From Taibaiella lutea (GTDB taxonomy: Bacteria > Bacteroidota > Bacteroidia > Chitinophagales > Chitinophagaceae), in contig NZ_VWSH01000002.1 in assembly GCF_008629695.1 (NCBI RefSeq), positions 279,410-343,409 on the forward strand: a stretch of DNA of 64,000 nt, written 5' to 3'. Below are positions 7,656 through 29,126 of the stretch, piece after piece. The notes under the pieces were generated by a model, which was not told where the DNA came from, made no database searches, and saw nothing but the letters and a program-made list of their open reading frames with translations. The position numbers and the translations under genes were made by a program. Each line of letters starts with the position of its first letter. Positions within the stretch are counted from its first letter, which is position 1.

Positions 7656-8480
7656 GTGGACGTTCAGCAATACATATCATCAGGCATCATTGAGACATAC
7701 GTTTTAGGTATGGCCTCGGAGGAAGAAGTGCGTGAGCTAATGATGTTGTGTGAGCAATACCCCGAAATTAAAGAGGCTTTGTTATCCGTGCAGGCTGATA
7801 TGGAACAATATGCAACCTTGCATGCTGCCCAACCTCCTTCCGGTATGAAAGAGCAGATTTGGAATGTGTTGCAGGAGAATAATAATATTAATTCAGACAG
7901 TCCCGCAGATAGCAGCATAGTAAGTAATGTTATTGCCTTTAAAGAACCTGAAAAGGAAAAGAAAGCCTTCCGTTCAATGATGGCAGCAGCTGCTGTTATT
8001 GTAATTATTGCAAGTGTGGGGCTTAATTTCTTTTTCTGGAATAAAACACAAAGCACGCAACAGGAACTGGCATCGATGAAAACCGAACAGCAGCAAATGC
8101 TGGCATCCAACAAAGCCTATCAGGAAAAACTGGCACAAATCAACAGTATGTTGCTTGATCCTGCCATGAAATCTATGGTGCTTGCAGGGGTAGGCAATCA
8201 TGTTGGTACGAATGCCATGTTGCTATGGAATACCAGTTCCAAAGAAGTATATCTGTCGCTTAAAAATATGCCGCCGCCGCCAACTGGTAAGCAATACCAG
8301 TTATGGGCCATCGTAGATGGCAAGCCCGTTGATGCAGGCGTATATGCTTTGGATTCCAAAGATGACATGCAGAAAATGAAAGTTATTCCAAGTGCGCAGA
8401 TGTTTGCCATAACAATAGAAAATGAAGGTGGCAGTGCTGCGCCAACCCTTGACCAAATGGTGGTAGCAGGTAAGGTTTAA
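7656..8480 (+). CDS. RskA-family anti-sigma factor
   Basis: A 274-residue single-pass membrane protein beginning with GTG. The N-terminal ~75 residues (SSGIIETYVLGMASEEEVRE...) are the cytoplasmic sigma-binding segment of the anti-sigma-K type; one transmembrane helix lies at about 108-130 (MMAAAAVIVIIASVGLNFFF); a short coiled coil rich in Gln/Glu follows; the C-terminal ~120 residues (LLWNTSSKEVYLSLKNMPPPPTGKQYQLWAI...) are the extracytoplasmic RskA domain. It should sequester the sigma factor encoded immediately upstream (6-bp gap). No zinc-finger HxxxCxxC motif is seen, as is usual in Bacteroidota RskA-like proteins. A terminator closes the operon. Confidence 0.9.
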   Translation: MDVQQYISSGIIETYVLGMASEEEVRELMMLCEQYPEIKEALLSVQADMEQYATLHAAQPPSGMKEQIWNVLQENNNINSDSPADSSIVSNVIAFKEPEKEKKAFRSMMAAAAVIVIIASVGLNFFFWNKTQSTQQELASMKTEQQQMLASNKAYQEKLAQINSMLLDPAMKSMVLAGVGNHVGTNAMLLWNTSSKEVYLSLKNMPPPPTGKQYQLWAIVDGKPVDAGVYALDSKDDMQKMKVIPSAQMFAITIENEGGSAAPTLDQMVVAGKV

Positions 8481-8502
8481 AAGAGAAATAATTATAGGAA
8501 TT

Positions 8503-8536
8503 AAAGACGGCTTCAAAATGAAGCCGTCTTTTTTTG
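8503..8536 (+). terminator. Terminator of the sigma/anti-sigma operon
   Basis: A perfect 13-bp stem (AAAGACGGCTTCA at 8503-8515, complement at 8519-8531) with a 3-nt loop and a run of T, 22 bp after the anti-sigma stop. Confidence 0.95.
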
Positions 8537-8606
8537 TGATTGTTCAGCAATGTTTTTTGAAATTCCACGCTTCTGTCTATATTTATTGCGCAAACCAATA
8601 CTAACT

Positions 8607-9299
8607 ATGATATCTATACCATCATCCATTATCCAGGTACAGCAATTGCTGAATACAGAACAACTGCAGCAAATTGACGCCCTCTTACAGCAAATACCCT
8701 TTGAAGACGGTAAAACTACAGCAACAGGTACCGCTAAAGAAGTAAAAAACAATTTGCAGGCTACCCGCGAAGAAAATCCTTATAAAAGACAGTTACAACA
8801 AATTGTGTTTGCCGCCGTTGCAGGGCATCCGCTTGTACAAACGGCCGTCATGCCTAAAAATATATTGCCGCCTATTATAAGCAAGTACAGTAATGGCATG
8901 GAATACGGCTGGCATACAGATAGTCCGGTTATGACTATTGATTATACCGTACGTGCCGATCTCAGTATGACTTTGTTTTTATCCGATCCGGATACATATA
9001 AAGGCGGCGAACTTGTGATTCACACGCCTTCGGGTTATGTAAGTTATAAGCTCGCGAAGGGAGATGCTGTTATTTATCCGACTACAAGATTGCATTGTGT
9101 AAATCCGGTAACAGAAGGTGAGCGTGTGGCATGCGTTACCTGGCTGCAATCATTAGTAAAAGATACGGAGAAAAGAGAATTGCTGTTTCAGGTAAAAACA
9201 ATACAGGAACGCATTGCGGCAAAAGATATGAAATCGGAAGAAAATCTTTTGTTATTACAGGTTTATAGCAACCTTATGCGCATGTGGACTGATTTATAA
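8607..9299 (+). CDS. Fe(II)/2-oxoglutarate-dependent PKHD-type hydroxylase (YbiX/PiuC family)
   Basis: A 230-residue prolyl-4-hydroxylase-like dioxygenase. Iron ligands are visible as HTD in YGWHTDSPVM and a distal His in RLHCVNPVTEGERV, whose Arg would bind the 2-oxoglutarate carboxylate; YKGGELVIHTPSG is the family core. The ATG at 8607 was chosen because it gives a length close to E. coli YbiX (about 225) and starts directly before the conserved N-terminus; an in-frame ATG at 8550 would add 19 residues that look like noise. In proteobacteria these genes sit beside siderophore receptors; here there is no such neighbour, so its substrate is unknown. Confidence 0.9.
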   Translation: MISIPSSIIQVQQLLNTEQLQQIDALLQQIPFEDGKTTATGTAKEVKNNLQATREENPYKRQLQQIVFAAVAGHPLVQTAVMPKNILPPIISKYSNGMEYGWHTDSPVMTIDYTVRADLSMTLFLSDPDTYKGGELVIHTPSGYVSYKLAKGDAVIYPTTRLHCVNPVTEGERVACVTWLQSLVKDTEKRELLFQVKTIQERIAAKDMKSEENLLLLQVYSNLMRMWTDL

Positions 9300-9398
9300 A
9301 CACGGAAAACAATGGAAGGGCGTGAGGGGATTGTCTATAATCCCTTCCTCCTTTTGCCTTGAAAAGAGATAAATGCTCCGCTTATCTTACCTTTTCTT

Positions 9399-9764
9399 AG
9401 GTGGTACCTTACAATTTCTTAGGTATCACCTTACTTTTTCTTAGGTATCACCATATAATTTCTTAGCAGGACCTAACCTTTTCTAAAATATCACTTAACC
9501 TCTTTAATAGGCACCACCTCGTATTTTAGCAGGTATTGCCTTCGAATTTTGTAGGCAATACCTAATACTCCTCATAGGTGCCACCTCCTGTTTTTTTAGG
9601 ATATGCCTCGTTTTTTCGTAGGTATCACCTAATGCCTTTCATAGGTACCACCTCGTTTTTTCTTAAGTATCACCTTGCCATCTTGATAAGTACTGCCTTG
9701 TTATTTCTTAGCTGGTACCTCCCGGTTTTGGAGGGGATACCTAAGGAAACCTTAGGTAGTCATA
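9399..9764 (+). repeat. Phased ~22-bp degenerate tandem repeat array (AGGTATCACCT core)
   Basis: Sixteen to seventeen diverged copies of an 11-bp core close to AGGTATCACCT, separated by about 11 bp of T-rich spacer. Cores begin at about 9399, 9421, 9443, 9465, 9485, 9509, 9531, 9553, 9576, 9598, 9620, 9643, 9665, 9688, 9710, 9732 and 9754, so the spacing is nearly always 22 or 23 bp, two helical turns. The core is a partial inverted repeat (AGGT/ACCT arms, 3-nt centre). Because 22 is not a multiple of three and no reading frame has sensible composition, it is not a coding repeat. It ends about 100 bp before the fasciclin gene. Function unknown; a protein-binding array is one possibility. Confidence 0.9.
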
Positions 9765-9866
9765 TTTCAAATCCGGATGTAAATAATCTGGTTCAAAAAA
9801 TATTAATAGACTTTAAAACCATGAAGTATAAACACTCGTATATGCCATTAACTAAAACGAAATTTT

Positions 9867-10433
9867 ATGAAAATGAATCAGCTTAAATTACTTGGAGTTA
9901 TAGTAATGGCTTTGGCTTCCTTTCCTGCAGCACATACTTATGCCCAGAAGGAAAAAACTGTAATGGTTGGCGGCGCCGCAATGTATCCGTCAAAAAACAT
10001 TGTTGAAAACGCAGTCAATTCTAAAGATCATACAACATTGGTTGCTGCGGTAAAAGCTGCAGGCCTTGTTGAAACATTATCAGGCCCGGGACCATTTACC
10101 GTGTTTGCCCCGACAAATGCCGCATTTAACAAATTGCCCAAAGCCGCAGTAGATAAGTTAATGATGCCTGAAAGTAAGGCAATGCTTGCAAACGTATTGA
10201 CTTATCATGTTATAGCTGGTAAGCTGGATTCTAAGGATCTCATGATGAAAATTAAAGCAGGAAAAGGGAAAGCTGTAATTAAAACCGTACAGGGTGAAAA
10301 TCTGACATTCATGCAAAAAGGTAATGAGCTATGGTTGATGGATTCGAAAGGTAATAAGGCGTTGGTAACTATTAAAGATGTTTATCAGTCCAATGGCGTA
10401 ATACATGTTATCAATACAGTATTGATGCCGTAG
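9867..10433 (+). CDS. Secreted fasciclin-domain protein
   Basis: A 188-residue protein with a signal peptide (MKMNQLKLLGVIVMALAS...HTYAQ) followed by one FAS1 domain. FAS1 motifs are clear: the H1 block GPFTVFAPTNAAFNKLP and the central YHVIAG, with the H2-like end VIHVINTVLMP. FAS1 proteins are extracellular adhesion or matrix proteins. An ATG at 9873 is an alternative start two codons in. The gene lies directly downstream of the 22-bp repeat array and 2 kb from an ECF sigma/RskA pair; in mycobacteria SigK/RskA controls FAS1 proteins (MPT70/MPT83), so a similar regulatory link here is an attractive inference. Closed by its own terminator. Confidence 0.93.
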   Translation: MKMNQLKLLGVIVMALASFPAAHTYAQKEKTVMVGGAAMYPSKNIVENAVNSKDHTTLVAAVKAAGLVETLSGPGPFTVFAPTNAAFNKLPKAAVDKLMMPESKAMLANVLTYHVIAGKLDSKDLMMKIKAGKGKAVIKTVQGENLTFMQKGNELWLMDSKGNKALVTIKDVYQSNGVIHVINTVLMP

Positions 10434-10484
10434 GTTTTATTTGGTGGTTATTAAAGATTGTGTGTTTGTTTGATTTGTGTTTAT

Positions 10485-10517
10485 AGCAGTGGCTGCCTTA
10501 CAGCCGCTGCTTTTTTA
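10485..10517 (+). terminator. Terminator of the fasciclin gene
   Basis: A 10-bp stem (GCAGTGGCTG at 10486-10495 with 10501-10510, one G-T wobble), 5-nt loop CCTTA, then six T. Confidence 0.92.
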
Positions 10518-10642
10518 TTACCGAAGAAACATTATTGACTGTAAAGTATTGTTAATAAAAAATTGATTTATCAAAAGCAAAAACTAAGAGTTATTTCTCC
10601 TCGTATATCATGATTATGAATTAACTCTATAAAATAAATTTT

Positions 10643-12400
10643 ATGAAAAGACTCCAGCTTAATTTCAGGCGTTTATGCAAAAGCATAGCCTTGATGAGCA
10701 TAGTTGCTGCAAGCCATTCGGCCCTTGCATCGAGCCACAGAGAAGCACCGCTTATCTCTAACGACCCGCAGGCAGATAATACAGATCTCTATGCTTTCCG
10801 CAGTCCGGACGATCCCACAACTATTACCATCATTGCAAACTACATTCCATTTCAACTGCCGGAAGGCGGACCTAATTACTACACATTCGGCACCAACGTA
10901 CGTTACGAGATTCACATCAAGAACAAAACAACCTCAACTGGAGACGATATTACTTACAGATTTACATTCCAGCAAACCAACCAGGATAACACTACGTTTT
11001 TCAATATCAGGTTGGGTCAGCAAAATTTAAAAACTACTTACACCTGTGAAAAAAGTACAGATGGTGGCGCTACCTTTACTACCATCCTTTCAAACGGAAT
11101 AGTGCCACCGCCAAATATCGGGCCACGTTCTATAAACAGTACACCGGTAGGTCTTGGCGCTCCTTCTTATGATGATTTGATTCAGAATGCCATCACTACT
11201 TCTTCTACAGGCGAACGCTTGTTTTGCGGACCGGTAGATGATCCTTTTTTCGTTGATCTTGCAGGCGCGTTTGACGTAGGTAATTTCAGGCCCAATGGCA
11301 ATACCGTTAATGCCCCTAAAGATGGCCTTGCACGTTTTAATGTAAATACAATAGCAATAAAAGTACCAATTGCACTGTTGCAAAAAGATGGTAAAGATGT
11401 TTCGCAGGCAGTGAATATTCTTGATCCTGATTTTGTGATAGGCGTATGGGCTTCTGCAAGCCGCTTGCAGATTAAAACACTTAACAACGACGGTTCAACT
11501 TCAGAATCAGGCAACTGGGTACAGGTTTCGAGATTAGGTATGCCTTTAACCAATGAAGCCGTGATTCCTGTAGCAAGTAAAGACAAATGGAACGCTACAA
11601 CTCCTTATAATGATCTGCAATTTGCTGCAAACTTCAGTAATCCTGAGTTAGCGCTTTATATGGACGATTCTCAGTTTGGCGGTGCAGTACCTTCATTAAG
11701 CGCATTAAGAATCCAAAAAGCATCGCTGGGTTCTTATGATTTCAGAAACGGTAAAACAGGTTTGTTCCCGCTGAAAGGAACAGCTGCAGTTGCCGGTACT
11801 GCATTGGACGAGGCTTTGTTTGGAGGCGTGTTATTGCCCGACAATCATAGTCCGAGAGCAGTTGACCTTTTGCCTATCTTTTATACAGGCGTTCCTAATT
11901 TGAGCCCGTATCAATTGGCAACAGGCAAAAACGGCAATCCGCTTGCAGCAGGAAAACCTTTTGTAAATAACTTCCTGCCCACCTTAGGCGACATGCTTCG
12001 TTTGAATATGGCCGTTCCTGTTACGCCTCGTAACGATCCTAACTTTAGCTCTTTGGGATTAATTCAGGCAGCAGTACTCGGCCTTACCAACCCTGCTTAT
12101 AATACCAATACCAATCTTGAATTTATTCCGAACATGGATGGCTTCCCGAACGGACGCAGACTGGAAGACGATGTAACTACTATTGAACTTCAGGCTGTAT
12201 CAGGCGCAGCCCTTGCTGCTATTGGTTTGTGGTATGATGATTATAGTGCTGCTTCCGGTAATCCTGTTACACCGCAGCTATTAGGCGTTCTTGGATTTAC
12301 AGCAGGTGTTACACATAATGATACTACGTTTAAGGCTTCATTCCCCTATGTTCAGCAACCATGGAGAGGATATGATTACACTTTGCAAAGCAGATTCTAA
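10643..12400 (+). CDS. DUF4331 domain-containing secreted protein (no sorting signal)
   Basis: A 585-residue protein with a signal peptide ending near HSALA and then the family hallmark SSHREAPLISNDPQADNTDLYAF, here split for length: SSHREAPLISNDP plus ADNTDLYAF. The remainder is a single long DUF4331 domain, with IRYEIHI-like, PPPNIGPRSI, FCGPVDDPFFVDL and NGRRLEDDVTTIELQ blocks. The biochemical role of DUF4331 is not known to me. It is about 70 % alike by eye to the next gene, 30 bp downstream, so the two are tandem paralogues. Unlike that gene it ends right after the DUF4331 domain (RGYDYTLQSRF) and has no T9SS C-terminal domain, so it should remain periplasmic or be exported otherwise. 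First gene of a locus leading to HupE-like and TonB-dependent receptor genes. Confidence 0.92.
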   Translation: MKRLQLNFRRLCKSIALMSIVAASHSALASSHREAPLISNDPQADNTDLYAFRSPDDPTTITIIANYIPFQLPEGGPNYYTFGTNVRYEIHIKNKTTSTGDDITYRFTFQQTNQDNTTFFNIRLGQQNLKTTYTCEKSTDGGATFTTILSNGIVPPPNIGPRSINSTPVGLGAPSYDDLIQNAITTSSTGERLFCGPVDDPFFVDLAGAFDVGNFRPNGNTVNAPKDGLARFNVNTIAIKVPIALLQKDGKDVSQAVNILDPDFVIGVWASASRLQIKTLNNDGSTSESGNWVQVSRLGMPLTNEAVIPVASKDKWNATTPYNDLQFAANFSNPELALYMDDSQFGGAVPSLSALRIQKASLGSYDFRNGKTGLFPLKGTAAVAGTALDEALFGGVLLPDNHSPRAVDLLPIFYTGVPNLSPYQLATGKNGNPLAAGKPFVNNFLPTLGDMLRLNMAVPVTPRNDPNFSSLGLIQAAVLGLTNPAYNTNTNLEFIPNMDGFPNGRRLEDDVTTIELQAVSGAALAAIGLWYDDYSAASGNPVTPQLLGVLGFTAGVTHNDTTFKASFPYVQQPWRGYDYTLQSRF

Positions 12401-29012: not shown

Positions 29013-29126
29013 TTAACGTTTAATGGGGTGATAATGGTTAAATGGTTTGATGGTTAAGAATGGTTGAGATGGATTGATGATTAAGAATGGTTAAATGGTT
29101 ATGATGGTTGGATGATTAAAATGGCC
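29013..29126. repeat. Low-complexity ATGGTTAA-type repeat tract
   Basis: Many diverged copies of (A)ATGGTTAA(G/A) and ATGGTTGATG in about 110 bp between the PBP gene and rimM. A related tract (in the other orientation) lies between groES and groEL. No ORF. The intergenic region 28897-29332 otherwise holds the CACAAAG repeats and the rimM promoter. Confidence 0.75.

Follow-up and report, generated by a model that had tools for sequence, protein, structure and literature searches.

CRISPR loci are built of identical repeats separated by unique spacers of similar length, roughly 23–50 bp. Plasmid iterons and partition sites such as sopC are tandem sites of two-turn or similar pitch that are bound cooperatively, and the operators of FadR-type GntR regulators, TGGTNNNACCA, occur singly or a few together in nature. 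Amongst dispersed repeats, REP dimers have spacers of 20–100 bp in most cases, according to the available section of one account (PMC3733652). Direct repeats of the heptamer TAACTGA are reported, in the accessible part of another, from Beggiatoaceae, Cyanobacteria and five Bacteroidetes, with a post-transcriptional role suggested near start codons in Beggiatoaceae (PMC4679880). Bacterial genomes also show an 11-bp periodicity tied to the helical pitch, which in E. coli is concentrated in intergenic DNA, to go by the title (PMC516772, PMC4132750). The 22-bp repeats in a further paper, as far as its available text goes, are the ends of an archaeal mobile element, unlike the arrays treated here (PMC3119063). 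Our search among open-licence papers found no description of such 22-bp arrays.

We have analysed a window of 64,000 nt from Taibaiella lutea (contig NZ_VWSH01000002.1, positions 279,410 to 343,409), in which an intergenic tract of ~360 bases is taken up by 16 tandem units. The features of the locus are, in window coordinates:

8610..9299, + strand: gene for a PKHD-type 2OG-Fe(II) oxygenase, 5′ of the array
9393..9747, + strand: array of 16 units of 21–23 bp, consensus TTTCTTAGGTRNYACCTTRCTT (from pattern search, TRF and unit alignment)
9459..9502, + strand: irregular 21-bp unit followed by a 23-bp unit (AGCAGGACCT, CTAAAATATCAC; from the alignment with arrays L009 and L010)
9739..9757, no strand: perfect 19-bp palindrome ACCTAAGGAAACCTTAGGT, that is, ACCTAAGG-AAA-CCTTAGGT, which holds the terminal half-site and closes the array (from the sequence)
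9867..10433, + strand: gene for a fasciclin-domain protein, 3′ of the array

The units start at 9393, 9415, 9437, 9459, 9480, 9503, 9525, 9547, 9570, 9592, 9614, 9637, 9659, 9682, 9704 and 9726; ten of the 15 intervals measure 22 bp, four 23 bp and one 21 bp (mean, 22.2). Each unit is made up around a dyad-symmetric core, AGGTRNYACCT, with a T-tract between successive cores. The motif AGGN5CCT occurs ten times between 9392 and 9762 and five times in the remainder of the window, whereas in 2000 dinucleotide-preserving shuffles it averaged 0.19 occurrences and never exceeded 2. TRF recovers parts of the array with periods of 22 and 44–45. The terminal AACCTTAGGT recurs at the ends of three sibling arrays (L009, L010 and L012; see below). 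The initial annotation had described, from the letters alone, a non-coding array with near-palindromic AGGT/ACCT arms at this place, and our analysis bears out each of these points: there are 16 units at a pitch of 21–23 bp, the core carries the arms, and all six reading frames are broken by 5–10 stops (longest open run, 61 codons), so that a protein-coding repeat is rejected. Its dismissal of CRISPR likewise holds, as judged from the repeat architecture: an 11-bp core, an 11-bp related linker and diverged units. Its claim that all cores face the same side of the helix is correct only at ~11.1 bp per turn, whereas at 10.5 bp per turn successive units would drift by ~41 degrees. Elsewhere in the window, a degenerate tandem tract of the ATGGTTAA type with mixed periods of 8, 17, 27 and 35 bp lies at 29033–29124.

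The annotation had also proposed a genome-wide search for the core at a 22-bp pitch. Searches of this genome reveal a family: the array as query gave ten matches at seven places in its own genome (4.27 Mb, five contigs), and a strict two-unit pattern gave 25 matches against none for the backward control. Six of the seven arrays contain 16–25 units each; the seventh (L014, on contig C2 near 608 kb) is a weaker variant with 12 units, mostly alternating between 21 and 22 bp. The copies within an array are tandem and head-to-tail, and array length differs between the paralogues. L009 and L010 have 91% identity across 580 bp, and the odd 21-bp/23-bp pair of the window array is in register with a similar pair in both, which implies that whole elements were copied from one ancestral element. 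The adjoining genes, as taken from mechanical ORF lists, are co-directional at three places, convergent at three and divergent at one. They specify the fasciclin protein and the oxygenase; a DUF423 protein; an FAD oxidoreductase and a DUF2200 protein; a dehydrogenase and a hydrolase; a desaturase and a TonB-type receptor (the latter read from sequence); and an HNH protein, while three neighbours have no Pfam match. On contig C1, the AGGT arrays near 576, 950 and 1324 kb are 374 and 373 kb apart, an interval not seen for the arrays of C2 and C3 and perhaps due to chance.

Some 200 bp in the downstream part of the L009/L010 identity are a separate repeat of ~190 bp with TATCCC..GGGATA ends (L009:5592-5787, L010, L017-L021 and others), to which the genome has 13 matches, of which several are short. 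A fragment of it lies ~45 bp after an IS200-like transposase gene (L011:7366-7827), and it is possibly a REP-type element moved by the IS200-like transposase.

Base counts over 104 units of six arrays (L014 and end units without a clear core being left out, five 21-bp units kept) show where the constraint lies. The arms carry 1.2–1.8 bits per position and the T-tract 1.4–1.7, the centre base 0.03; the flanks of the centre are R in 92 and Y in 97 of the 104 units. Over 14 comparable units of the window array and L009 (21-bp units left out), 15 of 112 arm sites have changed, as against 67 of 158 in centre and linker (Fisher P 2e-7), and 7 of 42 sites in the TTT of the T-tract. These two arrays differ by 103 substitutions in 355 bp without a single gap column, and all 15 unit lengths are identical, the odd ones included. 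The comparison with L010 gave 18 of 104 changed arm sites and 59 of 147 in centre and linker (P 1e-4); the closer pair, L009 and L010, gave 7 of 104 and 21 of 147, which is not significant alone (P 0.07). The dyad sites are thus kept in sequence and in helical phase amongst paralogous arrays of one genome. In 99 units there is no surplus of compensated arm pairs, which indicates that the letters of the arms are kept and not just their pairing. From these alignments, arms and phase look constrained; unit exchange inside an array could, for its part, make uniform positions look conserved without selection.

Outside its own genome, the core array has a patchy distribution. Amongst 244 genomes of the family, the two-unit pattern occurs in four: the own genome (31 matches per strand), G085 (one pair at 22 bp), G225 (one pair at 23 bp) and G106 (two pairs at 22 bp, inside an 11-bp repeat). 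In 392 Bacteroidota genomes, any core pair 12–42 bp apart was found in 33, the own genome included, in a scan whose backward controls were often above zero too, and no 22-bp pair stood outside the own genome among the matches listed. Bacteroidota as a whole do not share the core array. A scan of 84,980 genomes for three cores in a row at a pitch of 21–24 bp gave at least 116 stretches; at least 68 have exactly 22 bp twice and these belong mostly to Bacteroides, Prevotella, Treponema and other Spirochaetaceae, and Verrucomicrobia, with Flavobacterium psychrotolerans and a Chitinophagaceae MAG also present (all among the matches listed). The 68 listed loci lie within called frames (10), between convergent (15), co-directional (19) or divergent (9) genes, or at contig edges (15). 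Matches at 23–24 bp often fall in open frames or are plain tandem repeats, and loci on viral contigs have a 24-bp spacing in 14 of 17 cases, in both instances among the matches listed. When gaps of 1–31 were allowed in 12 array genomes, all 12 had core pairs, and 148 of 150 pair rows among the matches listed (from three of the 12 genomes), in which a site is often counted once per strand, were spaced by exactly 22 bp; the backward control was zero for nine of these genomes and lay between 1 and 8 for the other three. In another Bacteroidota genome, G442, seven paired-core rows at 23 bp among the matches listed (e.g., C25:15420) have a common linker of the AGGTTGCACCTAGGGCTATTCAAAGGTTCGACC type, possibly a further dispersed family.

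No gene is constantly adjacent to the arrays, and no binding protein was found amongst their neighbours. In five Bacteroides genomes, a cluster of six proteins, of which two are confirmed as HU-HIG (PF18291), is found at most 450 bp from arrays. As a constant partner, HU-HIG is rejected: in Candidatus Bacteroides pullicola, one of 26 AGGT array places is within 1 kb of one of the 21 HU-HIG copies, and the array-rich genome UBA3783 has none. A recurring histidine-kinase/response-regulator cluster near arrays was set aside as generic.

Two scans that make no use of the core sequence revealed a broader pattern. The palindrome scan chains odd palindromes at a fixed step above 24 or 21 bits (the own AGGT arrays are missed by it because their arms have only 4 bp). 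At 24 bits, 374 kb of B. pullicola contain ten arrays at step 22; steps 16–21 and 23–29 yield nothing. Their arms are unrelated (AAAGGT/ACCTTT, ATCAAT/ATTGAT, GGAAC/GTTCC, TGTAAC/GTTACA, AATCAT and others), and inside single arrays the arms change while the symmetry is kept. Bacteroides sp. 224 (400 kb, 21 bits) has two arrays at step 22 and none at other steps, and the same-genus genome G101 (400 kb, 21 bits) has no array. In the own genome, the first 400 kb of C1 are devoid of palindrome arrays at 24 bits, as are a further 400 kb, where six single matches at other steps appear at 21 bits; the first 400 kb of C4 contain one array at 24 bits and a chance-level match (step 26) at 21 bits. This C4 array (C4:55042-55318, that is, L302:15042-15318) has 12.6 copies of a 22-bp unit of unrelated sequence, AATGACTGTGTTTCACGGTTAC, and is located between the genes for the Der GTPase and a methyltransferase, overlapping the end of the latter by ~36 bp.

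The TRF census counted tandem arrays of at least 2.8 copies and merged overlapping rows; the window array does not pass this filter. Units of 21–23 bp make up 20 of 23 arrays in B. pullicola (374 kb), units of 22–23 bp 13 of 19 in Bacteroides sp. 224 (400 kb) and units of 21–22 bp 10 of 29 in the own genome (1264 kb), where ten more arrays have units of 41, 42, 43, 63, 82 or 84 bp; in G101 (400 kb), none of four arrays is at 21–23 bp. Five of the ten own 21–22 bp arrays overlap called frames. Around core loci of other groups, neither of the two core-less arrays in Treponema (44 kb) has a 21–23 bp unit, the one in Verrucomicrobia (54 kb) has a unit of 21 bp, and some at Spirochaetaceae and other Bacteroides loci fall at 21–23 bp. 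The pitch is thus free of sequence in Bacteroides and in the own genome, and suggested to be so in Spirochaetaceae; we do not extend it to other groups. Arrays of 22-base pitch in unrelated bacteria appear to form a wider class that is apparently undescribed. An 11-bp sub-period inside the units is weak or absent.

Several repeats came to light alongside. The own genome has many 21-bp arrays (e.g., L240:17299, L300:5020, L312:15929, L313:17474, L349:16918 and L358:3870), some of them dispersed copies: L240 and L300 have a unit in common, as do L312 and L358 in opposite orientation. Intergenic arrays with units of 41 and 82 bp, about four and eight turns, are present at L309:12095, L341:19648, L243:1, L252:17674 and L254:14533. 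B. pullicola harbours a GC-rich 22-bp family (AAGCACGGGCGCAGGTACGGGT; L230:5260, L228:129, L237:3771 and others), not palindromic by a crude test.

The reading we prefer, at a probability of about 0.45, is that the array is a phased platform of double-stranded DNA for a candidate cooperative dimeric protein. The dispersed intergenic element, tandem AGGTRNYACCT sites spaced by two helical turns and separated by a T-tract, would act as double-stranded DNA, with homodimers of a sequence-specific protein filling successive sites cooperatively, at a dimer pitch that fits ~11 bp per turn. Several hundred bases between genes would be coated and perhaps bent, and could serve as a nucleoid or insulation platform or as a titration site, rather than as the operator of a single gene. 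Such a cooperative dimer on duplex DNA is favoured by the retention of the letters, dyads, T-tract and phase next to a free centre. Unrelated arms in phase inside one B. pullicola array are left unexplained by one sequence-specific dimer. Curvature speaks for the platform in part: at either twist, each of the six AGGT arrays has a predicted bend above the mean of its column-permuted versions, but the bend is reached by 5% or fewer of the permutations in only three of the six at each twist. Against the platform, the signal is weak overall and absent from the three B. pullicola arrays tested; nor is it marked in the Verrucomicrobia array tested. Intrinsic curvature, modest in the own AGGT arrays and absent in B. 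pullicola, is therefore rejected as a common feature, and bending would at most be a local aid.

The initial annotation had taken the array for a site of cooperative dimer binding or structural DNA upstream of the fasciclin gene. The DNA-level part of that proposal is in keeping with the dyad cores and conserved phase; the link to fasciclin finds no support. The last palindrome does end 109 bp before the fasciclin start codon, as an operator of that gene might, but the six sibling arrays adjoin other genes in every relative orientation, and neighbours and orientations so diverse do not fit a promoter element of a single gene. Moreover, two same-genus species keep close fasciclin orthologues (73% identity in G174, 71% in G101) whose upstream 1.5 kb lack the core and whose loci show no 22-bp repeat; in G101 an anti-sigma gene (RskA) directly precedes fasciclin, without oxygenase or array. 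The annotation had itself named absence of the phasing beside a retained fasciclin gene in related strains as evidence against its view, and for the promoter claim this is what we see, between species rather than strains. In the third same-genus genome (G001), fasciclin matches are weaker (37% at best), and none of the three same-genus genomes searched contains the exact two-unit pattern. Regulation of fasciclin is accordingly a very improbable function, and the window array is probably a platform, protein-binding or DNA-shaping, and not a fasciclin switch. Fainter still is the chance that these are palindromes of the REP/BIME type, mobilised by a REP-associated tyrosine transposase. They are dispersed, intergenic and palindromic, and an IS200-like transposase gene stands ~2 kb from the L011 array, but what accompanies that gene is a different repeat (TATCCC..GGGATA). 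Y1 transposases (PF01797) have no match in the B. pullicola and Treponema genomes (G244, G246), both array-rich, AGGTNNNACCT is absent from 17 Y1 loci with flanks of up to 1.5 kb, and the consensus of 104 units contains neither a GTAG nor a CGTC tag; a REP element with its RAYT is thus rejected.

There are two further explanations. Arrays could be transcribed and, as RNA (or single-stranded DNA), form rows of hairpins with three-base loops that protect or end transcripts. The window array indeed outdoes its shuffles in folding on either strand (z −6.2 and −5.5), the C4 array folds on the + strand only (z −9.7 vs. +1.4), through G-U pairs, and the arms of B. pullicola change with pairing kept. 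Any palindromic tandem array folds well, however, whatever its role; stems of 4 bp are weak, hairpins have no need of an exact pitch, compensated arm pairs are not in excess, and of 416 arm pairs in the own AGGT arrays 24 are A-C and 14 G-T (on the T-tract strand). Nor is a known Rfam RNA involved: 11 array loci gave only tRNA in Rfam 15, and the six weak matches in 8400–10800 of the window (with an E-value setting), of which one, rivX, overlaps the array start, are all below gathering scores. Hairpins are possible for the C4 array; as a general account, we hold them to be improbable. The main rival supposes a mutational trait: minisatellite-like repeats without a binding role, in which replication, repair or recombination duplicates two-turn lengths, such that intergenic tandem arrays of any sequence take on a pitch of 21–23 bp. 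The clustering of unrelated arrays at this pitch in the two Bacteroides and the own genome is what it predicts; only four of 43 consensus units of 21–23 bp arrays pass the crude palindrome test (P < 0.05), and two own 21-bp arrays lie inside large frames, of 686 and 943 codons. What a mutational trait would not lead one to expect is conservation of the arms next to free centres and linkers, 103 substitutions without an indel, or arms that change inside an array with their symmetry kept, and we know of no mechanism that counts two helical turns. On balance, we rate this explanation as somewhat unlikely.

If the platform is the preferred reading of the window array, the pitch that the whole class has in common despite unrelated letters is better accounted for by a filament protein that reads pitch or by a process that duplicates two turns, either of which may apply. 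Some Bacteroidota, Spirochaetota and Verrucomicrobiota, with close relatives that do without, may have a chromosome-wide system in which a trans-acting factor recognises or constructs intergenic DNA according to two-turn pitch and not letters, the arrays then conceivably being a phased scaffold for a filament-forming nucleoid protein. We regard this proposal as rather doubtful; such a factor would often read dyad symmetry too, and would explain a 22-bp pitch with unrelated sequences.

Compared with known systems, the core may resemble a FadR-type operator in being an odd 11-bp palindrome with a free three-base centre, but the outer base differs by an A/T exchange and the arrays assemble 16–25 sites in phase. 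Iterons and sopC-like sites are plasmid features, whereas the seven loci reside on chromosome-sized contigs; no replication or partition gene is amongst the identified neighbours, and an origin from plasmid or phage is rejected, with no array match at E 0.001 in 72,556 plasmid records or in a phage search. REP/BIME elements, in the available section of their description, are likewise short, dispersed intergenic palindromes whose copy number varies between species (PMC3733652), but the family described here has a regular head-to-tail 22-bp pitch. TAACTGA repeats are similarly intergenic direct repeats, patchy over distant phyla, that form long arrays in some Bacteroidetes and are missing from the same neighbourhood in a close relative; they have a seven-base unit, and the accessible part of that report describes neither dyads nor a 22-bp pitch (PMC4679880). 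The 11-bp periodicity, as far as those papers' available text goes, is a genome-wide statistic (PMC516772, PMC4132750), whereas we find discrete arrays. Families of dispersed repeats in bacteria are usually recognised by sequence. What appears to stay constant here is a length equal to two turns of a slightly underwound helix; sequences that are otherwise unrelated show it in some genomes of distant phyla, while a close relative does without. A functional length would point to a phase-reading nucleoid protein, a mutational one to duplication of DNA in steps of two turns.
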